A DNA stretch of 20,453 nucleotides from a virus. Position numbers and translations under genes: made by a program. The stretch is taken from positions 1 to 20,453 of the IMG/VR virus record IMGVR_UViG_3300031787_004800; one strand, written 5' to 3'. Below are positions 1 through 20,453 of the stretch, in pieces (position 1 is the first letter of the stretch; every line of letters begins with the position of its first letter). Under the pieces are notes generated by a model that saw nothing but the letters and a program-made list of their open reading frames with translations, was not told the origin of the DNA and ran no database searches.

Positions 1-39
1 GTATGTAAACACAGTAGCGAGCGTGTAAACACATGTCAA
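1..39 (-). promoter_or_regulatory. Early promoter with paired operator motifs, first copy
   Basis: This is the same sequence as 15492-15530. On the minus strand there is a TTGACA -35 box (34-39), a 17-bp spacer and TACTGT as the -10 box (11-16). Two TGTGTTTACA motifs overlap it. It reads leftwards off the window; if the genome is circular or concatemeric, it is the promoter of the early operon. Confidence 0.6.
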
Positions 40-101
40 GCACCCCGAGGGGGCGGGGGCAGGATCGGGGAGAAACATCGACCCCACCCCCTAATCTTGC
101 G

Positions 102-118
102 GGCGATGTCCCGTCGCC
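102..118 (-). terminator. Short hairpin after the endolysin gene, possible weak terminator
   Basis: GGCGA (102-106) and TCGCC (114-118) can pair around a 7-base loop, just downstream of the endolysin stop on the minus strand. No T-run follows, so it is not a canonical intrinsic terminator. It lies between the last late gene and the early promoter, where a terminator would be expected. Confidence 0.2.
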
Positions 119-128
119 GGCAAGAGTT

Positions 129-599
129 CTATGGCTTAGGCAGCGCTCTCCATGCAGCCTCAAAAGCCTCGGCAGATGCCCAGTCGTTAGAAACTTCGAC
201 GTGTAGCCATGTACCGCCGGGTGTGCCTGCGTTGTCGGTAGCGGTAAACACCTTGACGCCTTTAGTGCCAATGCCACGAGAGCACCTGTACCCGCGACCC
301 CAGTCCTTGTATGCGTAGTCGTGTATCTCACAGATACGCAGCTCCTCGGAATACTTGAGAAACCAGTCCCATGCTTGCACGGCCTTGGCGCGGGCGTCCT
401 TGCCTGTGCCGTAACCGATGTCCACGGCGAAGCCAGTGGCGTGAACCGAAAGATTGTTGGACCCTCGCATTTGGCGATTGGCATAAATGCCGAGGTTTGT
501 AAACCCCCAGCGGCGCTTGCAGAGATCCATAAGTTTGACGGTGACGGGGGATGCTTTTTTGCCGTCCCACGCTGGGTAAAAGGGATACTTACGAGGCAT
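129..599 (-). CDS. Endolysin, M15-type zinc peptidase (VanY/L-Ala-D-Glu peptidase-like)
   Basis: A 156-aa lysis enzyme predicted to cut peptidoglycan peptide bonds. The zinc-site motif SVHATGFAVD (51-60) supplies His53 and Asp60, and WLHVE (131-135) supplies the third ligand, His133; this spacing is characteristic of M15 D,D/L,D-peptidases. The protein has no signal peptide, so release depends on the neighbouring holin. The ATG at 599 follows a strong AAAGGAG ribosome site by 7 bases and overlaps the holin 3' end by 11 bp. No separate cell-wall-binding domain is visible, and the length suits a single-domain enzyme. The variant at 15620-16093 keeps all the motif residues but differs by an insertion and substitutions just before the WLHVE motif. 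The exact bond cleaved cannot be read from the sequence. Confidence 0.88.
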   Translation of the reverse strand: MPRKYPFYPAWDGKKASPVTVKLMDLCKRRWGFTNLGIYANRQMRGSNNLSVHATGFAVDIGYGTGKDARAKAVQAWDWFLKYSEELRICEIHDYAYKDWGRGYRCSRGIGTKGVKVFTATDNAGTPGGTWLHVEVSNDWASAEAFEAAWRALPKP

Positions 600-882
600 T
601 GCTTGACTCCTTTGGTTTTGACTTCAAACCATTTGCACTTAAGACCCCCGCCAAAGACCCAGTCATAAAGACGCAAAGCGTAGACACCAGATCAATAAAG
701 GCGGCGTCGTTGGGCGATTGGGAAGTCAGCGGCTGCGTGATGAAGATGAGCGCGTACAGCATCGACAGGACGGACGCTGCAAACACCACGGCCAGTGTGA
801 TGCCGATAATGAAGATAAGCCGTGCGTGGATTTCCTCGGGCGTGTGGCGCTTCTCAGGGTGCTGGCGTACTGATGGGGGCAT
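589..882 (-). CDS. Holin, two transmembrane segments
   Basis: A 97-aa small membrane protein directly upstream of, and overlapping, the endolysin gene. It has a charged N-terminus (1-20), a long hydrophobic segment (about 22-49), a short polar loop, a second hydrophobic segment (about 65-85) and a Lys/Ser-rich tail. Size, topology and position fit a two-TM phage holin that forms lesions in the inner membrane for endolysin release. Compared with the copy at 16083-16376, all four amino-acid changes fall in the last seven residues, so the membrane part is under strong constraint. The assignment rests on topology and context, not on a recognised holin family. Confidence 0.72.
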   Translation of the reverse strand: MPPSVRQHPEKRHTPEEIHARLIFIIGITLAVVFAASVLSMLYALIFITQPLTSQSPNDAAFIDLVSTLCVFMTGSLAGVLSANGLKSKPKESSNAS

Positions 883-1060
883 CGTTTATTTCCTTAGGGA
901 GCATGTCTGTAGTGCAGGTGTCAGAGGCTGTGCAGATCGGTGGCTTGCAGTCTGCGGTCTCCCAGTTGGCTGGGTCTTGGCAGGGGTACCGGTATGACCC
1001 GTCGTAGCCACAGCTACTGAGGGTTAGCGCCAGCAGGGTCACTGTCAGAAGACGGTTCAT
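854..1060 (-). CDS. Small phage lipoprotein in the lysis module
   Basis: A 68-aa protein with a lipoprotein signal: basic MNR, a hydrophobic core and an LSSC lipobox with Cys17 as the predicted lipidation site. The mature part is Cys/Pro-rich (Cys at about 27, 38, 43 and 49) and has no domain I recognise. I chose the ATG at 1060, preceded by GAGGA at 6 bases, over an in-frame TTG at 1072. The gene overlaps the holin by 29 bp. A lysis accessory role or exclusion of superinfecting phage are both possible. It changes fast between the two variants (11 of 68 residues), with the signal peptide and cysteines conserved. Confidence 0.68.
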   Translation of the reverse strand: MNRLLTVTLLALTLSSCGYDGSYRYPCQDPANWETADCKPPICTASDTCTTDMLPKEINDAPISTPAP

Positions 1061-1148
1061 GCTTTTCCTCAATTGGTGCGTCTATCTCGTAAATCTCCAA
1101 CTTGCCTGATGACCAGTCGTGGACGGTTTGTTTTTCTGTGTTGCTCAT
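1014..1148 (-). CDS. Conserved 44-aa protein of unknown function
   Basis: A short acidic, soluble protein starting MSNTEKQ and ending GANPQ. Its ATG shares a base with the stop of the preceding tail gene (TAATG), which suggests coupled translation, and its 3' end overlaps the lipoprotein start by 47 bp. The second variant (16508-16642) keeps the same start, stop and length; most differences upstream of the overlap are third-position synonymous, which is good evidence that it is translated. Five of 44 residues differ. No family recognised. Confidence 0.62.
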   Translation of the reverse strand: MSNTEKQTVHDWSSGKLEIYEIDAPIEEKHEPSSDSDPAGANPQ

Positions 1149-1690
1149 TAGTTGCGGTATCCAAACACTTGGTATTCGACTGTGGCTGTTCCTGAGCTTG
1201 TAAACAACTGAAACCCTGTGAACTGGTTGGTTGAGTTTTGACTGCCACCAACCATGTACGGAAAGCCGAAGTTTGCGTCAACAAGAGTGCCGTGGTGCAT
1301 TGTGAGAGCTGCCTTGTTTGGGTTGTAAATGTCAATGGACTGTGACAACAAAGCAGAACTAGCAATACCGAATAACTGGGTATCGGCATTTGAACGCTGG
1401 TAATAAAGAGTGTTATTAAACGTGTAGTCAGACCCGATGCCAGCCTGGTAATAGTTTGTGCTGGTGGGCGTTGTGCCGACAATGTATTTCATGTCAACAC
1501 GGATTGAGGCTGATTTGTTAGTCACGTTTAAAAGCAAGCGGTACTGCTTGTAGTCAGAACTGAACACGCCCGTAACATTGGTCGGGGTAGTAGTTAGCGA
1601 AAGAGTGCCGGTGGCAATCTTCCAAAGGCCCACTCGGTCCATAGCGGCCGCTGTCAGAACCTCCCCTGGTGCAAAATCTGGTACTGGCAT
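1148..1690 (-). CDS. Minor tail protein, probable receptor-binding or tail-tip protein
   Basis: A 180-aa protein. Its N-terminus (MPVPDFAPGEVLTAAAMD) resembles the short attachment segment common at the start of actinophage tail-tip proteins. The rest is beta-rich and Thr/Ser/Asn/Tyr-rich without cysteine, as expected of a fibre head. It is the last tail gene before the lysis module. Against 16642-17184 it has nine substitutions, most within residues about 100-145, the pattern expected of a host-contact surface. No enzymatic motif. The receptor-binding role is inferred from position and variation. Confidence 0.6.
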   Translation of the reverse strand: MPVPDFAPGEVLTAAAMDRVGLWKIATGTLSLTTTPTNVTGVFSSDYKQYRLLLNVTNKSASIRVDMKYIVGTTPTSTNYYQAGIGSDYTFNNTLYYQRSNADTQLFGIASSALLSQSIDIYNPNKAALTMHHGTLVDANFGFPYMVGGSQNSTNQFTGFQLFTSSGTATVEYQVFGYRN

Positions 1691-1720
1691 AACTAAAATC
1701 CTAACTTGCCGTGTGTGTTG

Positions 1721-2872
1721 CTAATAGACATAAAGCCCCAACTTATTGGTATCCAAAATCCCAAAGTCGTCGCTATCCAAAATAAAATAAGGATTAGATT
1801 CAGCGGACGACAGGTAGTAAGTAACGCGGGTTTGCTCTGGAGTGGCCGTCATGGTTGCGCCTTCGATGCGAGCAGCAACTGTGGTACCTCTGAACTGAAT
1901 ACGGGTCTTGTAGGCAGGCAAAAAAGCAAAAATGTCTGTATTCATCGTGTCTATGTTGGTGCCGTTTTGACCACCAGAAACGACAGAAACAGCATTAGGT
2001 GCCACCACCTGATCGTCAACCGACGCCAAGTAATAATCTGCAAGGTCGCTGGCCTGTTCAACCGTGGTTGCATAGGTCTGTATAACAAAGCTGCGGTATG
2101 GCGCACTTCCGACACGGTTGCCTTGTTTGACTAGAGGAGGAGCTTCGACAATTACTTCAGTTATGTAGTTGTCAGCAAGTGTGTCAAAATCAAGGACGTT
2201 ATAAATTGCGTTAGTTGAGTCGTTAAAAACGTCAGAAAATTTAGACAATGTAGTCAAGTTGGTTGCATTAGAAAAAATGAAAATACTGCCTTGACGGTAA
2301 ACGTCGTCAATTGCGGATCTGGGAGCACCGTCAATTAGACGACCTTGAACAGTATTCATAAAGGTCTGCATCCAATCGGACAAGGGTCCTTCAGTGGCTA
2401 CTGGGTTCACTGGTTCACTGGTCAAGTTTCCATTCCAGCTAAGACCGTAGTAGTTAGCTACTTCTGTCAATTGGCCGTTAGCCAAGGCCACTGACGGGGT
2501 AAACCCGTCGCCCTGTGTTCTACCCCAACGCCCCATTGCACCCTCGGCGTCAATAGTGAGAAGATCTGCTTCGCCGACACCAGCTTGGAATGGCATACCC
2601 CAAGTCACTTTGACGTCTCTGATAAACCCAGTCCATGCGGCGGTTACCGTGTTTCCGGGCGAAAAAAATCTAATTCCAACGTCAACAAGAAGAGCTGTGT
2701 TAGGTGATGTAAACCCTGTGGGGTAGCGAAAAGTAAAAGAAGCTGTGGACACAGACCAACTGTCGGTCACTTGTTTTCTGCCGACAGTGCAATCCAATGC
2801 AACGAGCTCTGGTATTTCAACCCAAGCGGACCCGCTGAAGTATTCAACTTTGTAGTTGCTAAAGAGGCTCAT
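1721..2872 (-). CDS. Minor tail protein (tail-tip/baseplate component)
   Basis: A 383-aa beta-rich protein directly after the tape measure gene. Its ATG overlaps the tape measure stop by 4 bp. The position matches the distal-tail or tail-tip hub proteins of siphophages. The N-terminal about 120 residues read like a beta-sandwich (alternating hydrophobic strands, FTFRYPTGFTSPN at about 47-59), followed by a long domain with many aromatic residues. Only six residues differ from the second variant (17215-18366). I cannot tell Dit-like from Tal-like by eye. Confidence 0.7.
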   Translation of the reverse strand: MSLFSNYKVEYFSGSAWVEIPELVALDCTVGRKQVTDSWSVSTASFTFRYPTGFTSPNTALLVDVGIRFFSPGNTVTAAWTGFIRDVKVTWGMPFQAGVGEADLLTIDAEGAMGRWGRTQGDGFTPSVALANGQLTEVANYYGLSWNGNLTSEPVNPVATEGPLSDWMQTFMNTVQGRLIDGAPRSAIDDVYRQGSIFIFSNATNLTTLSKFSDVFNDSTNAIYNVLDFDTLADNYITEVIVEAPPLVKQGNRVGSAPYRSFVIQTYATTVEQASDLADYYLASVDDQVVAPNAVSVVSGGQNGTNIDTMNTDIFAFLPAYKTRIQFRGTTVAARIEGATMTATPEQTRVTYYLSSAESNPYFILDSDDFGILDTNKLGLYVY

Positions 2873-4713
2873 CTTGAGATTTTAATCTGTGCTGGAAGTG
2901 AACCATTTTGACGTGAGTACTTCACCAGCGCGTCGACTACAGCCTGCGGATCTGCACCGCTGACGTTAATGGTGACGTTGTTTCCAGATCGGCGAGCATT
3001 GGCTTGATTAAGTAAACCCATGTCTCCCGCAATTGCTGATTCGCCAAGTGCTGCACCTGCCACGTCAATTGAGCCGAGGTCGGCGTTGAGAGATGCAACA
3101 CTCATGCCGCCAGTGCCTGCAAGAAGATCAGCGGCGACCTGTGAACCAGCCACGGGTCCAAGGTTCATGAGCTGTGCAAGACCAGACCTGCCGAGACCAG
3201 CTGCGATGAGCTCCTGAAGTTGTCCCCCAAATTTCTTGGCGGCTGCAATCTGTTCGGCGAATGCCTGAGAGTAGGTCTTGCGCTGGGCTTGTGCAGTGTT
3301 GACTCCTGCTTCAGCTTTGGCAACGCGCTCGGTGGCGTCTGCCATTTGCTCTTGGGTGTAAACGCCATCCTTCTGAAGTTTGTTTAGTTCTGCATAGGCA
3401 TCTACCCGCTCTTTAAGCGCATCTTGGTATTTGGTTTCAGAATCAGTGGCGCCAGAGACAGCAGAACCGAGAGACACCCAGCCCCTTACTGCGTCAGCAA
3501 GTCCGCTGGCGTATTCACGAAGAGATTGTTTAGCCCCTTCAATTGCTTTCTTAGTGGCTTCAAACAAGTTTTTAGCGGCTTGTCTTGCTTTATCTGATGC
3601 GGCCTTGGCTTTTTCGGCGGCAGCAATACCGGCAGCTTCAGCCTGACGCGCCCTATCACCTGCTTCTCGAGCCTTGTCAATCTGGACCTTTAAGTAGCCA
3701 GTTTCTTCTGCTGCCTTGTTTGTGGCATTGGCATAATCGCCTTGAGCCTTAGTGGCGTTTCTGACCATAACGGTAAGACCGACAAGTGCAGCAGCTCCAG
3801 CTATGGCTGTGGCAATGCCGACACCCGTGGCAATCTGAACGGCGAAACCCGAAATAGCGAGAGCTGTGTTTGCTGCCGTGGTGATGGCGGCGATTGTGTT
3901 GTAAACAACCATTGCGGCCTTGGCTGCCAAAAGAGCCGTCGCAAGACCGCCGACCCCAATTGCAAACCCAATGACTAGCGGCGTGTTTTCTCTAACAAAG
4001 GTGGCAGCCTTCTGGAGCCCCTTAGCAAACTCAGCAAGGTACGGCACCAGTGCCAAGCCAATTGTTTCTTGAGCGTCGTCAAGGGCAATCTGCATCTTCT
4101 TAAGTCCACCGGCTGCGGTGTTTGCAGCTGCGTCAGATGCGCCCCCAAAGTTGCCTTCAAGAATTTTAAGCACTTCAGAAAAGTCAGCGCCATTCTTGAT
4201 TGCGGTCTTTAACTCTGGGGACAAGGCTGCAAGAGATCGCATGTTGCCTGAGAACCCACGCGAAAGCGCTTCAGAGACAGACCCTAAATCTTGGCCGGTT
4301 GCCGCCGATACGTTTAAAGCCGTTTGCAGTAAACGCTGTGCATGGCTGACGTCCTTAGTGGCTGTCACCAAAGTGGACAAGGCCGGACGAAGCTCGTCGT
4401 CCGACACGGCCGCGGTGTACTGGAGTTGCGCTACGAAATCCTCATTGGCAGAAATTTGAGCGTCTGTGGCTGTGGTGCTGTTGCGGATTTGAGTTGCCAG
4501 TTTTTTCATGGCAAGTTCTTCGTCTGCGGCAGCCTTAGCAGCAGATAGTCCAGCGGCAGCAAGACCGGCTACAGCAGCAGCGGCAGGCAATGCAGCCTTG
4601 CGGATTGCGAACGATGCCTTTTCTCCGTTGGTCTTAAGGCTTTCAAATTCTTTAATAGCACTCTTAATGCCTTTGAGGTTGGCGTCTGCGACGATGCTGA
4701 GAATGATGCTCAT
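2869..4713 (-). CDS. Tail tape measure protein
   Basis: A 614-aa, Ala/Lys-rich, mostly helical protein; the longest tail gene, placed after the chaperone genes and before the tail-tip genes. It has an N-terminal helical region (1-240), a hydrophobic stretch with membrane-insertion character (about 244-315), long charged heptad-like coiled coils (about 330-400 and 430-500) and a C-terminal segment ending QIKISR. Tape measure length sets tail length; at about 1.5 angstrom per residue, 614 residues suggest a short tail of roughly 90 nm. The start overlaps the previous stop by 4 bp (ATGA). Four residues differ in the second variant. No lysozyme or peptidase insert is visible. Confidence 0.9.
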   Translation of the reverse strand: MSIILSIVADANLKGIKSAIKEFESLKTNGEKASFAIRKAALPAAAAVAGLAAAGLSAAKAAADEELAMKKLATQIRNSTTATDAQISANEDFVAQLQYTAAVSDDELRPALSTLVTATKDVSHAQRLLQTALNVSAATGQDLGSVSEALSRGFSGNMRSLAALSPELKTAIKNGADFSEVLKILEGNFGGASDAAANTAAGGLKKMQIALDDAQETIGLALVPYLAEFAKGLQKAATFVRENTPLVIGFAIGVGGLATALLAAKAAMVVYNTIAAITTAANTALAISGFAVQIATGVGIATAIAGAAALVGLTVMVRNATKAQGDYANATNKAAEETGYLKVQIDKAREAGDRARQAEAAGIAAAEKAKAASDKARQAAKNLFEATKKAIEGAKQSLREYASGLADAVRGWVSLGSAVSGATDSETKYQDALKERVDAYAELNKLQKDGVYTQEQMADATERVAKAEAGVNTAQAQRKTYSQAFAEQIAAAKKFGGQLQELIAAGLGRSGLAQLMNLGPVAGSQVAADLLAGTGGMSVASLNADLGSIDVAGAALGESAIAGDMGLLNQANARRSGNNVTINVSGADPQAVVDALVKYSRQNGSLPAQIKISR

Positions 4714-5243
4714 TTAGGGGTCACCTTTAGATTGCGGTTTACGGCGTTGCCAACCTTCTCGACGATGTCAAGCATGCCCTGCTGGATTTCGCCCTCGTGA
4801 CGTTCAAACGCTGGGTACATAATGCGAGAGGGCTTGCCGTGCTTTTCTGCAAGACGATCACCGAGCACGTTGCGATTGCGACGGCCAGCCATGTCATACA
4901 CGGTGTTAGCCATGCCCTGCCACTTGACCGAAAAGACCGCAAGGTTGCGGACGATGCCAGCAAACTCCTTGGGCTTCTTGGCGCTGACCGCTTGCTTGAC
5001 CATGGTCATTGCTGCAGACCCATTCCATGGGAACAACTGGTATCCGCTTTGAGTAACCCACTTGCGACCCATACCAGAAATCGGTGGGTCCTTAGGAATC
5101 TCGCTGCGGATGTCAGCCACCAGCGGATTGGTCAGCTGCTTAAAGTCTTTGGTGATTTGTAAACGCAAACGGCGGTCGACGCGGGATAGTTCCGAGAGTG
5201 CCTGCTTGAGTCCGTAGACCTCATAGTGCATCTCGACTGTCAT
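4710..5243 (-). CDS. HK97 gp10-like tail/neck protein (tentative)
   Basis: A 177-aa basic protein between the frameshifted chaperone and the tape measure. The N-terminal part, with an amphipathic helix, a polar DIRSEIPKDPP segment and a conserved SG..W pattern, resembles HK97 gp10-type tail-completion proteins, which usually lie nearer the connector genes. Its location here is somewhat unusual. The ATG overlaps the stop of the chaperone extension (ATGA), and its own stop overlaps the tape measure start. A tail assembly or neck role is likely; the family assignment is tentative. A partial second copy starts at the right edge of the window. Confidence 0.5.
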   Translation of the reverse strand: MTVEMHYEVYGLKQALSELSRVDRRLRLQITKDFKQLTNPLVADIRSEIPKDPPISGMGRKWVTQSGYQLFPWNGSAAMTMVKQAVSAKKPKEFAGIVRNLAVFSVKWQGMANTVYDMAGRRNRNVLGDRLAEKHGKPSRIMYPAFERHEGEIQQGMLDIVEKVGNAVNRNLKVTPK

Positions 5244-10055: not shown

Positions 10056-11834
10056 CTAAGAGACCACGAGCATCGGCTTCTGGCGGTTAGTCGGTTTACT
10101 TACCAGCGAGATTGCAAACACTGCAACACGTGCGAGCTCGATGGGTCCAGGACTCTTCTGTGAACTAAGCACGGCTCCTTGGGCGGTCTTGACCATTACG
10201 GCGCGCCCGAGATGCTCGGCCAGTGCGGTGGACCCAGTGTGTGCAACCTTGTCCTCAAGAATCATCTTCTGCACAAGGGTGGTGTAGCGAAGCAGTTCAC
10301 CGTATCCAACCACGCTGTACCGGCGAGAGTATTGCGTGGGCATGTGGATCTCAAGCGTTGGTGTAATCGCAAGGGTGGTGGATTTGTCCTGCATGACGCG
10401 GTCAATCTGTCGCCACATTTCGTCTTCTGTGTCAACGACAAACTCGACATGAACGATGGTCTTGTGGTCCATTTGCACCGCGCGGACACCGACATAGCGA
10501 GCCTCCGAGATGGATGAATCCACAGCGAGGACACCGCCCGCTGGCATCTCAAGATTGGTATGGCATTTGCTCCAGTCGCCAATGTCCCAAGCGCCACGGC
10601 TCGAGACCCACTGGTTCAGGTGAGCACGTTGGAAGTAATCCTTTTTGGACGCTGCACGGAGAGCCTTCATTGTGATCGTCGTGCCCAGCGCTGGGTTAGC
10701 CCACCGGTAGAACTCCTCGCCCTTGGCCTCGGGGGGCATGCTCCACTCAGCGAAATAGAGCCCGTTGTTTTCGCCACGGTCAATGTCGCGTAAACCCTGC
10801 TCACGGATTTGCTGCATAAAGAGTGAGTCGGCATCTCCAGCCGTCGACCACATAGAAAGCAGGGGATTACTTTTAGCAATCATGGTTGGTCTGATTGCCT
10901 GATCCATGACCTCGCCGGCGATGTCGAAGATTTCGTCAGCAACAACAAGATCGTAGGAGCCACCGTGCAGGCGAGTTGATGCAGCTCTGACTTCCCACTT
11001 GGAGCCGTCTGGCATTGTGACTGACTTACGACCGAGGGCTTGCATCTGCTTAGCGCCGAAATGCTCGACAAGGATTGGGGCGACGGTGGCGTGGATTGCC
11101 TCGGCGCGGTCCAGCATGTTTGCTGTGCTGAGCACGTTTACCTTGCGCCCCCAAGGATGAGTTAAGAACCAGCCGATTAACGCTGAGAGGGCAAGTGACT
11201 TTCCGTTCTGTCGAGCGGTGCTGACCAACGCTTCTCGATGCACAAAGTCGCCGGCATCATCCGTCTCGAGTTGCTTTGTAAGACAGTGCAACTGCCACGG
11301 CATGAGCTCGGTCTGCATGAACTTGGAAGCCCACTCTGCAACTAGGGGTCCATAACTCCAGCCCCCCAAGCTGATCGTTTCCAGTCTGGGCAATGTGCGG
11401 CCAGTCTCGATGTCTCCGTTTACCTCGTCCGTGTTTCCAGCCAGTTCGGGCTGTTTACCGTCGAAAAAGAGACGATTGATTGGGGCCGGGGTCAGTGGGT
11501 CTGTGGAAAAAAATGCTGCGGTTGGTGATTCATTTCTTTCGGGGGCTGGGTCGGCGCGGCGGGCTGTGTTTACGGCTTGGTTTCTGCCGGCGATTTTTTG
11601 GTGGTTGGCTCGTGCTTGGTCGAGTGACCCGCGTCTGCTGTTGCATCTGGAGTGTGCGGGCTGAAGGTTCGAGAGGCTGTGGTCGCCTCCGTTCATAAGT
11701 GGCACGATGTGATCCGCGGTCCACTTCTGTCCTGCGATGTCGCCGTGTCCGCAGATAGCGCACGTGAGTTGTGTGCCGGCGAGGATTATCTTGCGGTTGC
11801 GTTGGTACTCAGGGTGTGAGTATGGGGATGTCAT
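10056..11834 (-). CDS. HNH endonuclease-large terminase fusion
   Basis: A 592-aa DNA-packaging motor. Residues 23-69 form an HNH nuclease with C25-x2-C28, DH at 41-42, N56, H61 and C64. After a low-complexity linker (about 70-145) comes the terminase: Walker A STARQNGKS (205-213), Walker B VVADE (297-301) and a RuvC-like nuclease domain beginning at VLAVDSS (Asp439). HNH proteins beside cos-type terminases normally form a separate gene; here the domain is joined to TerL. No small terminase gene is visible. The ATG at 11834 follows GGAGA by 7 bases; an earlier in-frame start at 11918 has no such site. The stop lies 67 bp before the portal start. Confidence 0.9.
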   Translation of the reverse strand: MTSPYSHPEYQRNRKIILAGTQLTCAICGHGDIAGQKWTADHIVPLMNGGDHSLSNLQPAHSRCNSRRGSLDQARANHQKIAGRNQAVNTARRADPAPERNESPTAAFFSTDPLTPAPINRLFFDGKQPELAGNTDEVNGDIETGRTLPRLETISLGGWSYGPLVAEWASKFMQTELMPWQLHCLTKQLETDDAGDFVHREALVSTARQNGKSLALSALIGWFLTHPWGRKVNVLSTANMLDRAEAIHATVAPILVEHFGAKQMQALGRKSVTMPDGSKWEVRAASTRLHGGSYDLVVADEIFDIAGEVMDQAIRPTMIAKSNPLLSMWSTAGDADSLFMQQIREQGLRDIDRGENNGLYFAEWSMPPEAKGEEFYRWANPALGTTITMKALRAASKKDYFQRAHLNQWVSSRGAWDIGDWSKCHTNLEMPAGGVLAVDSSISEARYVGVRAVQMDHKTIVHVEFVVDTEDEMWRQIDRVMQDKSTTLAITPTLEIHMPTQYSRRYSVVGYGELLRYTTLVQKMILEDKVAHTGSTALAEHLGRAVMVKTAQGAVLSSQKSPGPIELARVAVFAISLVSKPTNRQKPMLVVS

Positions 11835-12160
11835 GTGTTGTTCTCCTACCGCCCTTGCGCTTCGCGCTGCGGTTGGTTCCATGTTATGCAGATAGTTGTC
11901 TCGGTGCTTGCCCCCCACAGTTCGAGCAAGTAGCTCAGGCTGCCGGATGTTCTAACAACACCAGTGGACGGACACCATACGGATTTGTGACGTTTCGACG
12001 CTGCACTCCCCAGCTCTAAGGCAGGGAGCTCTACCCACGCTTTCCGTGTGTGTTTACCAGCACAGTGCAATCCCATACGTGGCCGTGGTCGTATTCAATT
12101 AGGGGGTGAGGGGTGAGCCGTTCGCGACAGGTTTACTGCCCGTGAAATGAATGCTCGCAC
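11835..12160. other. 326-bp noncoding region upstream of terminase; candidate packaging or late-control region
   Basis: No supported gene lies here. It holds two GTTTAC-family motifs (12049-12057 and 12131-12136), a CTCCC/GGGAG stem (12006-12010 with 12024-12028), a repeated AGCTCT (12012-12017 and 12028-12033), a CTTGC/GCAAG inverted repeat near 11906-11930, and the left arm of a larger inverted repeat (12109-12117). It is the place where cos-type phages keep their packaging site, and where a late promoter would be needed. I saw no convincing -35/-10 pair and cannot define a cos. Confidence 0.45.
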
Positions 12161-12168
12161 TCACCCCT
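12109..12168. repeat. Inverted repeat AGGGGTGAG / CTCACCCCT
   Basis: Nine-base arms at 12109-12117 and 12160-12168 are exact reverse complements separated by 42 bases. The right arm runs into a 12-bp palindrome, CCCCTCGAGGGG (12164-12175), at the end of the nuclease gene. It may be a terminator-like structure for early transcripts or part of a packaging site. Confidence 0.4.
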
Positions 12169-12508
12169 CGAGGGGTTTGAGCCCAGAGAGTCTGGCGGCG
12201 ATTGCCATCAAATCTCTAGGGCGCCAAATGTACACTTCTGCGCCGTTGCGCTCAAGAGTGTTGAGAATTTGTTGCTGAAGTGGCGAGACCTTGCCTGAGG
12301 CGGTCTTCAGCTCGGCATAGATGATGCCTCGCCCGTTCTGTGAGATAAGGGTTAGATCTGGCATGCCGGCGAGACCTCCTGTTCCCCAGTTGTTTCCTAG
12401 TGCGTTCTTGTTGTTGTAGCGCATGGGTGGCACATGGTGCGCTAACCAGCCGTACATCTTGCAGAGCTGCAATACGTGGTCTTGGAAAATGCGCTCAGTC
12501 ATGTCCAT
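12161..12508 (-). CDS. VRR-NUC family nuclease
   Basis: A 115-aa protein with the compact PD-(D/E)xK nuclease core of VRR-NUC proteins: GMPDL with Asp51, then YAELKTASGKVSPLQQ with Glu66, Lys68 and the downstream Gln78, and GAEVYIW near the C-terminus. Stand-alone phage members are thought to act on branched DNA or in recombination and packaging. The ATG at 12508 has AGGTGG 7 bases upstream; a second ATG at 12502 is also possible. It overlaps the preceding gene by 14 bp and is the last gene of the early operon, next to the recombination module. Confidence 0.85.
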   Translation of the reverse strand: MDMTERIFQDHVLQLCKMYGWLAHHVPPMRYNNKNALGNNWGTGGLAGMPDLTLISQNGRGIIYAELKTASGKVSPLQQQILNTLERNGAEVYIWRPRDLMAIAARLSGLKPLEG

Positions 12509-12698
12509 GCTTGGCCCACCTAATCCTCTCAAGTTGCGTTATAAGAGCAACGGCGTTTGCGTAGGGAATGCCCTTGCACCACACAGGCTCAATGCCGGCG
12601 ACAATGCAAAGGGACCAGATGTGTTTACATTGTTTAAATGTCGCCTTGTCGGGCTCAGCACGAAACTCGTGCTCGATGATGCGACTAACTTTGTCCAC
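12495..12698 (-). CDS. Early protein of unknown function, 67 aa
   Basis: A GTG start at 12698 (GGGAG 7 bases upstream) gives a 67-aa protein beginning MDKVSRIIEHEF and ending WAKHGHD. Longer upstream starts would lie inside the previous gene's frame and lack a ribosome site. It has two Cys, three Trp and a helical pattern. No family recognised. It overlaps both neighbours by 14 bp. A TGTGTTTAC motif (12620-12628) lies within it. Confidence 0.6.
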   Translation of the reverse strand: MDKVSRIIEHEFRAEPDKATFKQCKHIWSLCIVAGIEPVWCKGIPYANAVALITQLERIRWAKHGHD

Positions 12699-12888
12699 TG
12701 GTGCGCTCCCATGCCCAATGCAGCGCGTGAGACTCGTAACGCTTGTACATGTCAGCGGTCCCCAGCAGCTCTTTAATCTCGCCGGCGAGGATGTTGGCTG
12801 TGCCTTCCCAACGGGCTCGTGCATCGAGAGCCATTGCGAGCTGTTGTTTCAGGTTGTTCATTTCGACTGCGTGTGCTGATGATTCCAT
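12685..12888 (-). CDS. Early helical protein of unknown function, 67 aa
   Basis: The 67-aa protein begins MESSAHAVEMNNLKQQ and is almost entirely helix-forming and charged, with a likely coiled coil at about 8-45. The start at 12888 has a strong AGGGGG site 4-5 bases upstream. It sits tightly between a tiny membrane peptide gene and the next unknown gene. No catalytic motif or known family is visible. Confidence 0.62.
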   Translation of the reverse strand: MESSAHAVEMNNLKQQLAMALDARARWEGTANILAGEIKELLGTADMYKRYESHALHWAWERTSGQS

Positions 12889-12896
12889 GATGCCCC

Positions 12897-12977
12897 CTAG
12901 ATGTGTTTACGGGCGAGCCATGCGCCCAGCACCATCATTAGGAATGAGTGGGACAGGAAGTAAATGAACTCAGTCAT
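12897..12977 (-). CDS. Tiny membrane peptide, 26 aa
   Basis: The frame MTEFIYFLSHSFLMMVLGAW (first 20 residues) continues with LARKHI and stop. It is one hydrophobic helix with a positive C-terminus, so a single-pass inner-membrane peptide with N-out or N-in unresolved. The ATG overlaps the previous gene's stop by 8 bp and its stop lies 8 bp before the next start, so it fills the only gap in this part of the operon. The ribosome site is weak. It may be a holin-like regulator, a toxin-type peptide or an exclusion peptide; function unknown. Confidence 0.48.
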   Translation of the reverse strand: MTEFIYFLSHSFLMMVLGAWLARKHI

Positions 12978-13152
12978 TGGCTTTTTGTAGCTCGTCCTTG
13001 AGCGCTTTGTGCAGCTCAATAACGGCCAATGCCTTGTCTGTGTTGTCCATTGCCTGCTGGGCTGTTGCCTGCCAAAAGCGGACCTGACCTTGTAAATCGT
13101 TGACCTGCAAGATGAGGTCTGCGATGTAATCGCGCATCGTTCCGTTATCCAT
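12970..13152 (-). CDS. Small coiled-coil early protein, 60 aa
   Basis: The 60-aa protein MDNGTMRDYIADL... is nearly all helix with heptad-like leucine and alanine spacing and a Lys/Glu-rich end. Its ATG overlaps the previous stop (TGATG), so it is probably translated by coupling. No family recognised; a partner or regulator of the adjoining recombination protein is possible but unsupported. Confidence 0.65.
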   Translation of the reverse strand: MDNGTMRDYIADLILQVNDLQGQVRFWQATAQQAMDNTDKALAVIELHKALKDELQKAND

Positions 13153-13706
13153 CAGAATGGCTCCTCAGGTGGGTAATTGTCGTCTGGTGGTGCGGGCTGT
13201 TCTCCAGCCTCGAGACGCTTGAGCTCGTCAATGTAGGCCGATGCTTGGCGCTTTGTCATGCCGTCAAGGTTGACCGGTGGAGTCTTGCCGAGGGACTTGC
13301 AGACGGCGCGGATCATGTTGCGCTGCTTATCGCTAGCAAGGTCGCCGCTTTCAGTAATCGTGACGTTATTAACGACCCGCTGAACCTTCTGCATTTCCTC
13401 TCGAGACGGACGCTTGGTGTGGTCCGAGGTTGGTGCGTATGACTCGCACATACGACCGAGGGCAGAGGTCTCGCAGTTCTCGACATGGCTGGTGCGGTTT
13501 ACATTGCCCTGACCACGCACCTCCTCGGCGTGTCCAGTGGCCATGAGTTGCTCACCAATCCACAGCTCTGCACGGAACACGCAGACATCAGATCCAGGTT
13601 GAGACAGCATGACGGTAACGACACGTGGCTCAATGTTTCGAGACCTAAGGGTTTCAAGTAAACGCGCTAGGCGCACCGCTACTGGTTCGTAATCTTCAAG
13701 ACTCAT
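13152..13706 (-). CDS. Erf/annealing-like recombination protein
   Basis: A 184-aa protein. The segment VENCETSALGR (75-85) matches the core pattern (ENAETSAxGRAL) shared by phage Erf-type and related single-strand annealing proteins. The first 75 residues supply the expected strands (VVTVMLSQPG, VFRAELWIG). The C-terminal part (SDKQRNMIRAVCKSLG...ASAYIDELKRL) is a helical tail often joined to these proteins, ending in a disordered acidic Pro-rich tip. These proteins promote annealing and concatemer formation. The ATG at 13706 follows GGAGGA by 6 bases and overlaps the previous stop by 4 bp. Arg/Met replace the usual Ala-Leu after the GR. Confidence 0.66.
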   Translation of the reverse strand: MSLEDYEPVAVRLARLLETLRSRNIEPRVVTVMLSQPGSDVCVFRAELWIGEQLMATGHAEEVRGQGNVNRTSHVENCETSALGRMCESYAPTSDHTKRPSREEMQKVQRVVNNVTITESGDLASDKQRNMIRAVCKSLGKTPPVNLDGMTKRQASAYIDELKRLEAGEQPAPPDDNYPPEEPF

Positions 13707-13945
13707 GGCAAGTCCTCCCAAGGGTTTTTGACTTTGAACACGACGGTCTCGCCGTATGACTCAAATGTTGTCGCCTCGGTACGGGCCCCAATGGATGGGT
13801 GCCACGTGTTTACGATGTCGGACAATTCAAGAAGTCGTGCAGCTGCTTCATAAAGCCATTTAGCGCCGACAGCGTCACCAGAAAGGTGACGATCTGTGGC
13901 GAGGTTCTTTAGGCGCTGGGCAAGTGCATCATCAGAGAACGACAT
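13703..13945 (-). CDS. Early protein of unknown function, 80 aa
   Basis: I placed the start at the ATG at 13945, where the frame overlaps the previous gene by 14 bp; the longer frame to 14044 is the out-of-frame shadow of that gene. The 80-aa product MSFSDDALAQRLKNL... has helices in the first half and beta-type residues at the end (YGETVVFKVKNPWEDLP). No family recognised. The 4-bp overlap with the recombination gene suggests co-expression. Confidence 0.6.
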   Translation of the reverse strand: MSFSDDALAQRLKNLATDRHLSGDAVGAKWLYEAAARLLELSDIVNTWHPSIGARTEATTFESYGETVVFKVKNPWEDLP

Positions 13946-14159
13946 TGGCTGCCGCTTTCTTGGCGTCGCGCTTGGCTTTGGCTTCAGCCTTTTTGCGGAT
14001 TGTCTCAAGTGACTTGGCACCTTCTGCAACGAGAGGCTCGACAACCTTACGCAGGGTCACTGCAAGGGTTTTGTCGCCGTCACGCAGCTGGACATGGACA
14101 AGGGCGGTGTATTCCTCAGGTGTTAAGCGGAGGGCAACCGAGTGTGGTTTGTTGATCAT
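13932..14159 (-). CDS. Ribbon-helix-helix-like DNA-binding protein (candidate repressor)
   Basis: The 75-aa protein begins MINKPHSVALRLTPEEYTAL. A short strand (SVALRL), then helix (TPEEYTALVHVQL), then turn and second helix (KTLAVTLRKVVEPL) is the ribbon-helix-helix order of Arc/MetJ-type DNA-binding proteins, followed by a basic Ala/Lys tail that could add DNA contacts. The ATG at 14159 has GGGAG 5 bases upstream. A TGTGTTTAC motif (14175-14183) lies in its leader, which would fit autoregulation. The fold call is by pattern only. Confidence 0.55.
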   Translation of the reverse strand: MINKPHSVALRLTPEEYTALVHVQLRDGDKTLAVTLRKVVEPLVAEGAKSLETIRKKAEAKAKRDAKKAAANVVL

Positions 14160-14174
14160 TGTTTCTCCCAATGT

Positions 14175-14183
14175 TGTGTTTAC
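14175..14183 (+). promoter_or_regulatory. TGTGTTTAC motif in the leader of the RHH-like gene
   Basis: This nine-base family member lies 15 bases before the ATG at 14159 and just upstream of its ribosome site. The stop codon of the preceding lysozyme-like gene (14180-14182) is formed within it. The placement would allow control of the RHH-like gene, but no promoter is visible here. Confidence 0.45.
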
Positions 14184-14671
14184 TTGCCTGACGTTGCGCG
14201 CCAGTTTCTTAATCCCTTGCCATCATCCCAGATAGCACTAGCCACCTTGAGATTGCAGGAAGGGTCTGTCAGGGAGCGTAGCACCTGACGTGCTGGGCGT
14301 TTACACACCCGTGCGGTCAGCGACCGCCACGATGAATTGATTTGCAGAAGGCCGATGTCATACGAGCTAACAGCCTTGCAATTCTTGTAGGTAGGTGCCG
14401 GCGATAGCACACAGTCGGTGTGGTCTTTGCCTTGGCGGTAATTCCATCCGACAGCTGTGGGGATGCAGCGCGACTCGCGCCACATGATGCGATCGAACAC
14501 CTCCACCGGTAAGCCGTGGCTTCTGAGCATGGTGTGCCACTGGGGGCATTTCCATTCGGGTGCAGCTGATGCTTGCACGGACGGGATAGATACGGTGAGT
14601 ACTGCGAAGCAGAGCAATGCACGTTTAATCAACCTTCTCAACTTTGGTAGGCGACCCCCACACTTGCCCAC
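14180..14671 (-). CDS. Exported lysozyme/transglycosylase-like protein
   Basis: The 163-aa protein has a classic Sec signal: basic RRLIKR, hydrophobic ALLCFAVLTVSIPSV, cleavage likely after ASA at about 36. The mature part contains WRESRC with candidate catalytic Glu66, and SSYDIGLLQINSSW (102-115), the core signature of the lysozyme/soluble transglycosylase superfamily. Six cysteines after the signal suggest disulfides outside the cytoplasm. The GTG at 14671 overlaps the upstream gene by 47 bp; a TTG at 14641 is an alternative. It is separate from the lysis cassette and sits in the early operon. It may help at entry, in late wall degradation or against rivals. Confidence 0.75.
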   Translation of the reverse strand: MGKCGGRLPKLRRLIKRALLCFAVLTVSIPSVQASAAPEWKCPQWHTMLRSHGLPVEVFDRIMWRESRCIPTAVGWNYRQGKDHTDCVLSPAPTYKNCKAVSSYDIGLLQINSSWRSLTARVCKRPARQVLRSLTDPSCNLKVASAIWDDGKGLRNWRATSGK

Positions 14672-14801: not shown

Positions 14802-14935
14802 AGGTCCTCGTCTTCAAAGTTCCAATCGTATGGGGGGTCTTGCCAGTGGGTTTCTATGTCTAGGGCTTGGTACATGCCGTAGATCAGGAAGCCAAAGAAC
14901 AGACCGAGTGGAACGGTGATAAAGAAGATGCTCAT
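14792..14935 (-). CDS. Small single-pass membrane protein, 47 aa
   Basis: The product starts MSIFFITVPLGLFFGFLIYG, one strong transmembrane helix, followed by an acidic, Trp-rich tail (PYDWNFEDEDLWD). The ATG overlaps the stop of the winged-HTH gene by 4 bp (ATGA), and GGTGG lies 7 bases upstream. Function unknown; topology and early expression would fit an exclusion or membrane-signalling role. Confidence 0.58.
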   Translation of the reverse strand: MSIFFITVPLGLFFGFLIYGMYQALDIETHWQDPPYDWNFEDEDLWD

Positions 14936-15267
14936 GGGATGGCCACCCAGACGATTGCTTCACGGCCTGAGCGCGTGTTACGGCGACGGCCTGAGTCTTC
15001 CAGCCATCCGTCATTGGCGAGCGTGTTGATGGCTGGGGTTGCGGACTGAACCAACATCTGAAAGTACTCGCAGATTTCGTCGCAGGTCATGCCGTCAGAG
15101 CCTCGAGATTTAATCTCTTGATAGATGGCGTTGCGTTGGGAGCCTGAGCGCCCCAGAGCGCGTCTAGCGGCCGCCTGAGACGTCTCCTGAGGTCCTGTGC
15201 GGGTGACGTTGCGGTCAACTGGCGGGCGGTTAATGCCGGCGAAGAGTGGAAGGTCATCGAATCCCAT
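14932..15267 (-). CDS. Winged-helix DNA-binding protein
   Basis: The 111-aa protein starts MGFDDLPLFAG at the ATG at 15267, just before the stop of the first gene's frame ends; the longer frame to 15429 is out-of-frame shadow. Residues about 45-111 have a winged helix-turn-helix pattern: SQRNAIYQEIKSRG, then DGMTCDEICEYF, then the recognition-helix-like SATPAINTLANDGWL, then the wing DSGRRRNTRSGREAIVWVAI. Similar small proteins are common in early operons of actinophages. It may control transcription or help replication. Confidence 0.72.
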   Translation of the reverse strand: MGFDDLPLFAGINRPPVDRNVTRTGPQETSQAAARRALGRSGSQRNAIYQEIKSRGSDGMTCDEICEYFQMLVQSATPAINTLANDGWLEDSGRRRNTRSGREAIVWVAIP

Positions 15268-15457: not shown

Positions 15458-15494
15458 TGTGTTTCTCCTATGTAAGCGGGGCGGGCACCCCGTA

Positions 15495-15524
15495 TGTAAA
15501 CACAGTAGCGAGCGTGTAAACACA
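15495..15524 (-). promoter_or_regulatory. Paired TGTGTTTACA operators on the early promoter
   Basis: Two identical TGTGTTTACA copies on the minus strand (15515-15524 and 15495-15504) are 20 bp apart start to start, close to two helical turns. One fills the spacer next to the -35 box; the other overlaps the end of the -10 box and the likely start region. Bound protein would block RNA polymerase. Confidence 0.6.
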
Positions 15525-15530
15525 TGTCAA
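15502..15530 (-). promoter_or_regulatory. Sigma70-like early promoter
   Basis: The minus strand has TTGACA (15525-15530), a 17-bp spacer and TACTGT (15502-15507). The -35 box is perfect; the -10 keeps the key TA...T positions. The early operon's first ATG is 45 bases downstream. This is the best promoter I could find in the window. Confidence 0.65.
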
Positions 15531-15619
15531 GCACCCCGAGGGGGCGGGGGCAGGATCGGGGAGAAACATCGACCCCACCCCCTAATCTTGCGGGCGATGT
15601 CCCGTCGCCGGCAAGAGTC

Positions 15620-16093
15620 CTATGGCTTGGGTAGCGCTCTCCATGCAGCCTCGAAAGCTTCTGGTGTCCAGTCGTTAGAGATCTCAACGTGGAGCCATGT
15701 AGAGGTGGGTCCGGGTGTCCCAGCGTTATCTGTCGACGTGAAAATTTTTACCCCTTTGGTGCCTGCCCCTCGACTGCACCTGTATCCACGACCCCACTGC
15801 TTGTAGGCGTAATCGTGTATCTCGCAGATACGCAGCTCCTCGCTGTACTTCACAAACCAGTCCCAAGCTTGGATGGCCTTGGCGCGGTTTTCCTTGCCTG
15901 AGCCGTAGCCAATGTCAACGGCGAAACCAGTGGCATGCACTGACAGATTGTTGGAGCCACGCATTTGACGGTTTGCGTAGATGCCTAGGTTCCTGAACCC
16001 CCAACGGCGCTTGCAGAGATCCATGAGTTTCTCGGTAACGGGGGAGGCTTTCTTGCCGTCCCACGCTGGGTAGTAGGGATACTTACGAGTCAC
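15620..16093 (-). CDS. Endolysin, M15-type, second variant
   Basis: This is a 157-aa homologue of the first-unit endolysin with the same zinc motifs (SVHATGFAVD and WLHVE). Its start is GTG at 16093, at the same place as the ATG of the other copy, 7 bases after AAGGAG; the longer frame to 16126 is not needed. It differs most near the C-terminus, with a Pro-Thr-Ser insertion-type change before WLHVE and DWTPEAF in place of DWASAEAF. The net length difference of 3 bp shifts all later coordinates to an offset of 15,494. Confidence 0.86.
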   Translation of the reverse strand: MTRKYPYYPAWDGKKASPVTEKLMDLCKRRWGFRNLGIYANRQMRGSNNLSVHATGFAVDIGYGSGKENRAKAIQAWDWFVKYSEELRICEIHDYAYKQWGRGYRCSRGAGTKGVKIFTSTDNAGTPGPTSTWLHVEISNDWTPEAFEAAWRALPKP

Positions 16094-16376
16094 TAGCAGG
16101 CTCCTTGGGCTTGGACTTAAGACCATTGGCGCTGAGTACGCCGGCGAGGGAGCCGGTCATAAAGACGCAGAGGGTGCTTACTAAGTCTATGAATGCGGCG
16201 TCATTGGGCGATTGCGAGGTTAAAGGCTGGGTAATGAAGATGAGTGCGTAAAGCATTGACAGCACTGATGCAGCAAACACGACCGCCAGTGTGATCCCGA
16301 TGATAAAAATTAGACGGGCGTGGATTTCTTCGGGGGTGTGGCGCTTTTCAGGGTGCTGGCGTACTGAGGGGGGCAT
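16083..16376 (-). CDS. Holin, second variant
   Basis: A 97-aa two-TM protein, identical to the first-unit holin except in its last seven residues, while the DNA differs at many synonymous sites. It overlaps the endolysin start by 11 bp and the lipoprotein end by 29 bp, as in the first unit. Confidence 0.72.
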   Translation of the reverse strand: MPPSVRQHPEKRHTPEEIHARLIFIIGITLAVVFAASVLSMLYALIFITQPLTSQSPNDAAFIDLVSTLCVFMTGSLAGVLSANGLKSKPKEPASDS

Positions 16377-16554
16377 CGGTTGTCTCCAGTGGGATTAGGT
16401 TGCCAGTGCAAGTGTCTGACGCTGTGCAAATGGGTGGATTGCATTCTGTTGTTTCCCAGTTTGCTGGGTCTTGGCAGGGGTAACGGTATGACCCGTCATA
16501 GCCACAACTACTGAGGGTCAGCGCCAGCAAGGTCACTGTCAGAAGACGGTTCAT
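16348..16554 (-). CDS. Lysis-module lipoprotein, second variant
   Basis: A 68-aa homologue starting at the ATG at 16554. The signal peptide, LSSC lipobox and later cysteines are kept. Eleven residues differ, concentrated in the C-terminal third (for example TTDMLPKEIN against GNLIPLETT). Confidence 0.68.
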   Translation of the reverse strand: MNRLLTVTLLALTLSSCGYDGSYRYPCQDPANWETTECNPPICTASDTCTGNLIPLETTDAPLSTPAP

Positions 16555-16642
16555 GCTTTTCCTCAATCTCAGCGTCTATTTCGTAGATTTCCAGACTGCC
16601 CGAAGACCAGTCATGAACGATTTGCTTCTCTGTGTTGCTCAT
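16508..16642 (-). CDS. Conserved 44-aa protein, second variant
   Basis: It has the same length, start overlap (TAATG) and stop as the 1014-1148 gene. Outside the lipoprotein overlap, most base changes are at third codon positions, which supports its being a real gene. Confidence 0.62.
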   Translation of the reverse strand: MSNTEKQIVHDWSSGSLEIYEIDAEIEEKHEPSSDSDLAGADPQ

Positions 16643-17184
16643 TAGTTTCGGTATCCAAACACTTGGTATTCAACGGTTGCGGTTCCTGAGCTTGTAAACA
16701 ACTGGAAGCCTGTGAACTGGTTGGTTGAGTTTTGACTGCCACCAACCATGTACGGGAATCCTGTGTTGGCGTCAACAAGGGTGCCGTGGTGCATGGTTAG
16801 CGCGGCTTTGTTGGGGTTGTAAATGTCCATAGACCAACCCAAAAGCGCGGAACTGGCAATGCCAAAAAACTGCGAGTCGTTGTTTGATCGCTGGTAATAA
16901 AGCGTGTTGTTAAACGTGTAATCAGAACCAATACCGGCTTGGTAATAATTAGTGCTAGTAGCCGTTGTGCCAACGATGTATTTCATGTCAACACGAATTG
17001 AGGCTGACTTGTTAGTAACGTTTAGAAGCAGACGGTACTGCTTATAGTCCGAGCTGAATACGCCCGTGACATTGGTCGGAGTAGTAGTTAAGGAAAGCGT
17101 GCCGGTGGCAATCTTCCAAAGGCCCACTCGGTCCATAGCGGCCGCTGTCAGGACCTCCCCGGGTGAAAAGTCTGGTACTGGCAT
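16642..17184 (-). CDS. Minor tail/receptor-binding protein, second variant
   Basis: A 180-aa homologue with nine substitutions. Six lie in two small patches (SNNDSQFF against SNADTQLF, and LLGWSMD against LLSQSID), as expected if this part faces the host receptor. The N-terminal attachment segment is almost unchanged. Confidence 0.6.
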   Translation of the reverse strand: MPVPDFSPGEVLTAAAMDRVGLWKIATGTLSLTTTPTNVTGVFSSDYKQYRLLLNVTNKSASIRVDMKYIVGTTATSTNYYQAGIGSDYTFNNTLYYQRSNNDSQFFGIASSALLGWSMDIYNPNKAALTMHHGTLVDANTGFPYMVGGSQNSTNQFTGFQLFTSSGTATVEYQVFGYRN

Positions 17185-17214
17185 AACTAAAATCCTAACT
17201 TGCCGTGTGTGTTG

Positions 17215-18366
17215 CTAATAGACATAAAGCCCCAACTTGTTTGTATCTAAGATCCCGAAGTCGTCGCTATCCAAAATGAAATAAGGATTAGATTCAGCGG
17301 ACGACAGGTAGTAAGTGACGCGGGTTTGCTCTGGAGTGGCCGTCATGGTTGCGCCTTCGATGCGAGCAGCAACTGTGGTACCTCTGAACTGAATACGGGT
17401 CTTGTAGGCAGGCAAAAAAGCAAAGATGTCTGTATTCATCGTGTCTATGTTGGTGCCGTTTTGACCACCAGAAACGACAGAAACAGCATTAGGAGCCACC
17501 ACCTGATCGTCAACCGACGCCAAGTAATAATCTGCAAGGTCGCTGGCTTGTTCAACCGTTGTTGCATAGGTCTGGATAACAAAGCTGCGGTAGGGCGCAC
17601 TTCCGACACGGTTGCCTTGTTTGACTAGAGGAGGAGCTTCGACAATTACTTCAGTTATGTAGTTGTCAGCAAGTGTGTCGAAATCAAGCACGTTATAAAT
17701 TGCGTTGGTTGAGTCGTTAGAAACGTCAGAAAATTTCGACAATGTAGTCAAGTTGGTTGCATTAGAAAAAATAAAAATACTGCCTTGACGGTAAACGTCG
17801 TCAAATGAGGACCGTGGTGCGCCATCAATTAGACGACCTTGAACAGTGTTCATGAAGGTCTGCATCCAATCGGACAGGGGTCCTTCAGTGGCTACTGGGT
17901 TGACTGGTTCACTGGTCAAGTTTCCATTCCAGCTGAGACCGTAGTAGTTGGTTACTTCTGTCAATTGGCCGTTAGCCAAGGCCACTGACGGGGTAAACCC
18001 GTCGCCCTGTGTTCTACCCCAACGCCCCATTGCACCCTCGGCGTCAATAGTGAGAAGATCTGCCTCGCCGACACCATCTTGGAATGGCATACCCCAAGTC
18101 ACTTTGACGTCTCTAATAAAGCCAGTCCATGCGGCGGTCACTGTGTTTCCGGGCGAAAAAAATCTAATCCCAACGTCAACAAGAAGAGCTGTGTTAGGTG
18201 ATGTAAACCCTGTGGGGTAGCGGAAAGTAAAAGAAGCTGTGGACACAGACCAACTGTCGGTCACTTGCTTTCTGCCGACAGTGCAATCTAATGCGACTAG
18301 CTCTGGTATTTGAACCCAAGCGGACCCGCTGAAGTATTCAACTTTGTAGTTGCTAAAGAGGCTCAT
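17215..18366 (-). CDS. Minor tail protein (tail tip), second variant
   Basis: A 383-aa homologue with six amino-acid changes. It overlaps the tape measure stop by 4 bp. Three GTTTAC-family sites of the first unit (2297, 2499, 2709) are conserved at the matching positions. Confidence 0.7.
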   Translation of the reverse strand: MSLFSNYKVEYFSGSAWVQIPELVALDCTVGRKQVTDSWSVSTASFTFRYPTGFTSPNTALLVDVGIRFFSPGNTVTAAWTGFIRDVKVTWGMPFQDGVGEADLLTIDAEGAMGRWGRTQGDGFTPSVALANGQLTEVTNYYGLSWNGNLTSEPVNPVATEGPLSDWMQTFMNTVQGRLIDGAPRSSFDDVYRQGSIFIFSNATNLTTLSKFSDVSNDSTNAIYNVLDFDTLADNYITEVIVEAPPLVKQGNRVGSAPYRSFVIQTYATTVEQASDLADYYLASVDDQVVAPNAVSVVSGGQNGTNIDTMNTDIFAFLPAYKTRIQFRGTTVAARIEGATMTATPEQTRVTYYLSSAESNPYFILDSDDFGILDTNKLGLYVY

Positions 18367-20207: not shown

Positions 20208-20453
20208 TTAGGGGTCACCTTTAGATTGCGGTTTACGGCGTTGCCAACCTTCTCGACGATGTCAAGCATGCCCTGCTGAATTTCTCCTTCATGGCGCTCA
20301 AACGCTGGGTACATAATGCGTGAAGGCTTGCCGTGCTTTTCTGCAAGACGATCACCGAGCACGTTGCGATTGCGACGACCAGCCATGTCGTAGACAGTGT
20401 TAGCCATGCCCTGCCACTTGACCGAGAAAACCGCAAGGTTGCGGACGATGCCG
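20204..20453 (-). CDS. gp10-like tail/neck protein, second variant, cut by the window edge
   Basis: Only the C-terminal part (about 83 codons) of the homologue of 4710-5243 is present; the start lies beyond 20453. The visible part (GMANTVYDMAGRRNRNVLG and on to the end) matches the first copy almost exactly, with synonymous differences. Its stop overlaps the tape measure start by 4 bp. Confidence 0.6.
   Translation of the reverse strand, partial: GIVRNLAVFSVKWQGMANTVYDMAGRRNRNVLGDRLAEKHGKPSRIMYPAFERHEGEIQQGMLDIVEKVGNAVNRNLKVTPK

Follow-up and report, generated by a model that had tools for sequence, protein, structure and literature searches.

Comparison of the window, a virus record of 20,453 bases, with related contigs makes it likely that this very small, uncultured tailed phage controls its early genes through a ribbon-helix-helix (RHH) autorepressor, which would act at tandem operators on the early promoter and at further sites dispersed over the whole genome. 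The binder is most likely the small RHH protein encoded in the same operon. The phage probably uses this protein to shut off early genes and to occupy numerous sites on the phage genome, because the boxes in question occur only in related phages that encode it. We infer binding, repression and a role of the dispersed sites from the sequence, spacing, conservation and enrichment of the boxes, from their association with the RHH gene and from covariation between one residue of the protein and the motif. A preliminary description of this DNA had suggested that a repressor controls the early promoter and that a dispersed motif is linked to this control; the advance made here would be a named candidate, the RHH protein of the same operon, in place of the more obvious winged-helix gene.

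Self-comparison of the window showed that bases 1-4958 repeat bases 15492-20453 at 91.3% identity. The record appears to be a genome of ~15.49 kb unrolled past its start, with two close strains joined, and the 127 identical bases that open the repeat would fit a de Bruijn assembly with k = 127 circling such a genome. Reading it as a 20-kb genome, or as one with duplicated genes, would be a mistake: the first 127 bases are the same promoter region again and contain no second promoter, and the motif copies at 4-13 and 24-33 are thus the promoter counted twice. Open reading frames and family scans place nearly all genes on the minus strand of a genome that is ~92% coding, with the early genes spanning 15457 to 12161 (-) (Table 1). 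Portal, capsid, tail and tape measure genes are also present, the structural names except that of the terminase having been given by inspection. No lysogeny gene was recognised among the genes scanned, and a TerL query against bacterial genome contigs found no relative. An HNH endonuclease domain (residues 53-97) shares one open frame with the terminase large subunit (10056-11918, -), and many independent contigs begin near residue 147 of this fusion, which could be a genome end or a break caused by strain divergence.

Table 1. Positions of the promoter, boxes and genes in the window
Feature	Position	Strand	Details
Promoter region, second reading	1..127	.	assembly overlap; same letters as 15492-15618, mismatches from base 128 on (91.3% identity)
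Dispersed GTTTAC boxes, coding strand (= GTAAAC on +)	244..4334	+	starts 244, 499, 1200, 2297, 2499, 2709, 3012, 3358, 3901, 4329
HNH-terminase fusion	10056-11918	-	domain scans
Dispersed GTAAAC boxes, coding strand	10094..14304	-	starts 10094, 11136, 11418, 11453, 11568, 12052, 12131, 12623, 12905, 13497, 13808, 14178, 14299
Full 10-mer TGTGTTTACA, dispersed	12620..12629	+	
ERF-like (ssDNA-annealing/recombination type) protein, flank marker	13152..13706	-	phrog_11717/23738; ERF-type label by inspection only
Candidate binder, 75-aa RHH protein with Lys/Ala-rich C-terminal tail	13932..14159	-	alignment, family matches in relatives, model
GTAAAC box, RHH-gene leader	14178..14183	-	about 19 bp upstream of ATG; same place in most of clade 1
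SLT/lysozyme-like gene, flank marker of RHH locus	14180..14671	-	Pfam SLT_3 1e-5, SLT 0.0015
Winged-helix-like DNA-binding protein	14932..15267	-	phrog_1123
First early gene, 62 aa	15269..15457	-	missing or replaced in other relatives
Operator box 2, TGTGTTTACA	15495..15504	-	core 15501-15496; overlaps end of -10, core abuts -10
Early promoter	15502..15530	-	TTGACA 15530-15525, 17-bp spacer, TACTGT 15507-15502; read directly
Operator box 1, TGTGTTTACA	15515..15524	-	core GTTTAC 15521-15516; inside -35/-10 spacer; conserved in clade 1
Lysin-like gene	15620-16126	-	just before early promoter

Read on the minus strand, the early promoter has the order TTGACA-TGTGTTTACACGCTCGC-TACTGT-GTTTACA; downstream, the first early gene, preceded by a ribosome-binding site, starts with its ATG at 15457. 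It carries two copies of TGTGTTTACA (15524-15515 and 15504-15495) in the same orientation, one within the spacer and the other overlapping the -10, as the preliminary description had placed them; the spacing, which it gave as 20 bp or about two helical turns, is exactly 20 bp from start to start. The -35 is TTGACA, the hexamers lie 17 bp apart, within the 16-18 bp of sigma70-type promoters, and relatives with CATAAT or CAGAAT at the same -10 place support the call, but the -10 itself is poor: a strict consensus scan of the window did not list TTGACA-17-TACTGT, because TACTGT shares just 3/6 positions with TATAAT. Aligned relatives show TTGAC(A/T)-N17 followed by TACTGT, CAGAAT or CATAAT. With at most one mismatch, TGTGTTTACA occurs 11 times in the window, two of these being the re-read copies at 4-13 and 24-33, against 1.5 expected and a maximum of 5 across 100 shuffles. 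The meaningful unit appears to be the hexamer core GTTTAC rather than the 10-mer, because box-poor control phages show the same flanking preference; an 8-bp dyad (no A before and no T after GTTTAC) was rejected for the same flank pattern in these controls.

In the window, as in nearly every clade-1 contig, no 6-mer is more over-represented than GTTTAC/GTAAAC, with 37 copies per 15.5 kb as compared with 10.3 +/- 2.5 after synonymous-codon shuffling, which preserves proteins and codon usage. Over such shuffles the word reaches z = 6 to 13 in clade-1 contigs, and it comes first in the pooled 6-mer ranking of all three groups with S, A or V at the RHH residue considered below. The enriched word of other lineages is GTTTGC (z up to 7.5), and neither word is enriched in terminase-only relatives or in the L084/L109 group. 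The dispersed boxes lie mostly within coding sequence and occur in both orientations relative to the single-direction gene set. Their orientation flips at the promoter, with coding-strand GTTTAC upstream and GTAAAC downstream (window 1-4334 and 11136-14304, and relatives), and GTAAAC is still the most polar 6-mer, though codon shuffles predict much of the polarity. Since synonymous shuffles give much of the same pattern, polarity is not claimed here as an origin or stoperator signature. Even spacing of the boxes was likewise rejected as a general rule, since in most genomes evenness does not exceed the random level. The window (42 versus 10.8) and clade-1a contigs also have a strong excess of TCGCCG/CGGCGA over dinucleotide expectation.

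Related contigs were gathered with the terminase, the lysin, the pattern itself, the winged-helix gene, an RHH alignment and the SLT-like protein. The two motifs proved to be co-conserved, the pair upstream of the first early gene keeping its 20-bp spacing in most of these contigs. Within clade 1 it persists where the -35 is altered to TCGCCT or TTGCCT (L073, L075, L082, L083), and it is also kept where the -10 has become CAGAAT, CATAAT or CATGAT. A 20-bp direct pair occurs exactly once per genome, at the promoter, in the 13 clade-1 genomes checked. In L129, box 1 keeps its position but has the opposite orientation (GTAAAC), and the promoter of L154 has a GTAAAC-N4-GTTTAC pair, which suggests that the conserved unit is a pair of boxes and not one rigid sequence. 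Among GTTTGC phages, L087, L091 and L094 have GTTTGC...GCAAAC flanking the -10 and the promoters of L105 and L108 have one GTTTGC box only, while in L110/L111 and the L097 group GCTTGC stands in place of an exact GTTTGC. In most clade-1 contigs the RHH start codon is also preceded, at ~10-30 bp, by a box; this box reads GCAAAC at the equivalent place in the GTTTGC phages L087 and L092, and there is no exact box in the RHH leader of L072 and L075.

Association of the boxes with the RHH gene was examined in 124 related contigs holding both flanking genes of the RHH locus. All 61 contigs with the RHH gene were box-rich, as were 0/63 of those without it. Gene content in long contigs indicated that most other conserved families are common to the box-rich and box-poor groups, and that those found in the box-rich group alone are small ORFs, for the most part the RHH gene and the ORFs next to it. 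As these neighbouring ORFs also split the groups, the RHH gene is not uniquely picked out by presence alone. RHH presence switches only ~3 times on the ERF-protein tree, so that the 61/63 split rests on ~3 independent pairs, which were all concordant (3/3, p = 0.25) but too few for significance. In each contig where GTTTAC outnumbers GTTTGC, the first strand residue to face the DNA (S7 of the window protein) is S, A or V, and in each contig with the reverse it is T, with 1-2 evolutionary events behind this switch; relative to dinucleotide expectation, 3 of 15 T-type contigs are enriched for GTTTAC at least as much as for GTTTGC. Promoter and RHH-leader boxes mostly follow the genome-wide word in this matched lineage change. 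Because independent gain/loss and residue events are few, the case for the RHH protein is carried jointly by complete co-occurrence, by the specific position of boxes at the promoter and in the RHH leader, and by the concerted change of both of these sites, the genome-wide word and the residue. The link to the dispersed motif that had been proposed for the promoter gains from the same comparisons, since the pair is conserved, the hexamer is enriched beyond codon usage, the promoter box mostly shifts with the genome-wide word and a DNA-binding gene tracks with it.

In the family alignment, the 75-aa protein has an N-terminal strand in which Ala9 and Arg11 are invariant, followed by two helices, and its Lys/Ala-rich tail (KKAEAKAKRxAKK) is nearly invariant. 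Pfam matches were obtained for its relatives, namely NikA-like in 9/18 members (best 2.6e-5) and RHH_7, RHH_1 or ParD in others; the window protein itself has no direct Pfam match, and the RHH call rests on relatives and on the model. An AF2 monomer model (pLDDT 86.7) shows a strand-helix-helix arrangement, with helices at 14-27 and 32-74 after an N-terminal extended segment. The best Foldseek matches to solved structures are mostly RHH proteins (NikR, MazE, CdbA, Arc and ParD; also MatP), with E > 0.2 for this short chain. The modelled fold and the family-model matches of the relatives thus agree in placing the protein in the RHH (MetJ/Arc/CopG) class. Sequence searches of an annotated phage collection gave neither an RHH nor a lysin relative. 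At the corresponding position in L096, ~931-1123 past the end of the lysin, lies the gene for a distinct RHH-like small protein (MKYEEAMVTIAARIPARHAEIIRQ...), which the family model missed; this contig has no clear enriched word.

Under the mechanism that we propose, early transcription of the operon would lead to production of the RHH protein, dimers of which would occupy both GTTTAC boxes, which lie on the same promoter face at a distance of two helical turns. Bound protein would cover the spacer and the edge of the -10 and so turn the promoter off by negative feedback. The same protein would also bind the box ahead of its own gene and ~35 boxes over the ~15.5-kb genome, where it would most likely coat the long transcription unit, which runs in a single direction, or act on it as a roadblock. 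The dispersed sites may also titrate the RHH protein, and shut-off may then depend on genome copy number; elongation block, genome coat and titration are not distinguishable by sequence alone. More tentatively, we entertain a stronger version of this scheme, in which the protein marks the whole ~15.5-kb genome with ~35 selected hexamers embedded in coding sequence, serves at once as autorepressor and as roadblock or phage chromatin, has its choice of GTTTAC or GTTTGC largely set by one strand residue, and forms a stoperator-like system independent of cluster A.

It is conceivable, though we regard it as unlikely, that the RHH protein is mainly a chromatin, condensation or segregation protein of the phage similar to CdbA or MatP, with the dispersed boxes as main targets and the promoter pair as a secondary autoregulatory site. 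The ~35 sites per 15.5 kb on both strands of a ~92% coding genome, the nearly invariant tail and the weak Foldseek matches to CdbA and MatP are all consistent with such a role, as is the behaviour of CdbA of Myxococcus xanthus, an RHH protein that binds c-di-GMP and has >500 chromosomal sites with little effect on transcription (PMC7156744). Regulation is nevertheless favoured over a pure chromatin role because the 20-bp pair is special to the promoter and the RHH gene has its own leader box, and random-like box spacing in most genomes also counts against a chromatin function. That the two boxes are activator sites at which RHH binding switches the promoter on seems improbable: they do persist in L073, L082 and L083 where the -35 has decayed (TCGCCT), but they occupy the spacer and the -10 edge, positions typical of repression, and the -35 is near-consensus in most relatives.

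Other explanations dispense with the RHH protein altogether. A host-derived or Chi-like word, reflecting composition, a recombination hotspot or a host regulator, with a host factor bound at the promoter copies, would account for a short word on both strands and for its orientation switch at the promoter. We consider this very unlikely, as enrichment is absent from related phages that lack the RHH gene, the word shifts in step with the RHH residue, and coding constraint largely predicts the orientation switch in codon shuffles. The winged-helix early protein (14932-15267) is an obvious candidate binder, being DNA-binding-like, widely conserved and encoded by the first or second gene past the promoter, but its gene is absent from box-rich L097, L098, L101, L102 and L107 and present in many box-poor phages. 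This failure of presence/absence in both directions led us to reject it as a general binder, and there is scant probability that it takes the place of the RHH protein. Chance or an assembly artefact has a negligible probability: part of the repetition (4-33) is indeed the same promoter read twice in a chimeric contig, but 0/100 shuffles reach the observed count of TGTGTTTACA and dozens of independent contigs show the same arrangement.

Most of what is known of dispersed operators in phages comes from cluster A mycobacteriophages, where the repressor is of HTH type. L5-type phages have 20-30 dispersed 13-bp asymmetric sites, placed for the most part in small gaps between genes, with one orientation predominating relative to transcription, and bound by a monomeric repressor with an HTH and a second domain; their motif varies with the repressor between lineages, and a conserved site is found near the binder gene (PMC9283540, PMC6550527). 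The window resembles these phages in having the same site on the early promoter and dispersed through the genome, in the variation of the motif with the candidate binder by lineage and in the box near the binder gene. It differs in its 6-bp near-dyad core, in sites that are mostly coding and in both orientations with flanks not specific relative to controls, and in a 75-aa RHH protein as candidate binder; no homologous immunity repressor (HTH plus stoperator domain) was found among the early genes scanned with Pfam/PHROGs. L5-type operators and stoperators thus appear to be the nearest functional parallel, but the window system would not be a member, because site length, orientation and protein family differ. 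For the protein, we take Arc-type RHH autoregulators to be the nearest parallel. P22 Arc/Mnt, MetJ, NikR and MazE/ParD likewise are small RHH proteins with short promoter-overlapping boxes on the same DNA face and likely autoregulation of their own operon, whereas the tail of the window protein is Lys/Ala-rich. Repressors of these types act at one or few operators, and we know of no Arc/MetJ-type RHH repressor with ~35 selected sites across a small phage genome. An incomplete literature search found no precedent for a phage RHH protein with dispersed sites. CdbA and MatP share the RHH fold and many dispersed genomic sites but are cellular proteins, whereas the window phage has a conserved promoter pair. 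Arthrobacter cluster AN phages and Curtobacterium phage Penoan have genomes of ~15 kb, and Penoan shares the structural gene order and a TerL that is 25% identical, a distant similarity confined to TerL.

If the proposed scheme is true, a much smaller and unrelated protein has shaped an entire phage genome down to its synonymous codons, and the strategy has evolved more than once. The natural pairs of protein and site (S/A/V with GTTTAC, T with GTTTGC) would make specificity directly testable in vitro, and the system would offer a first way into the regulation of a large group of small, uncultured phages known solely from metagenomes.

Contigs of the RHH-negative group have features of their own. 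A cytosine-methyltransferase-like gene (SLFSGIGGLDLGLERAGMEVIWQSEIDPYA) is found only in this group, in L160 and six other contigs. In L164, L171, L170 and others, GTATAC, GTTAAC and GCATGC have 1, 2 and 3 copies, respectively, compared with 22, 46 and 36 expected from codon shuffling, and the near-absence of these palindromes looks like restriction-site avoidance.
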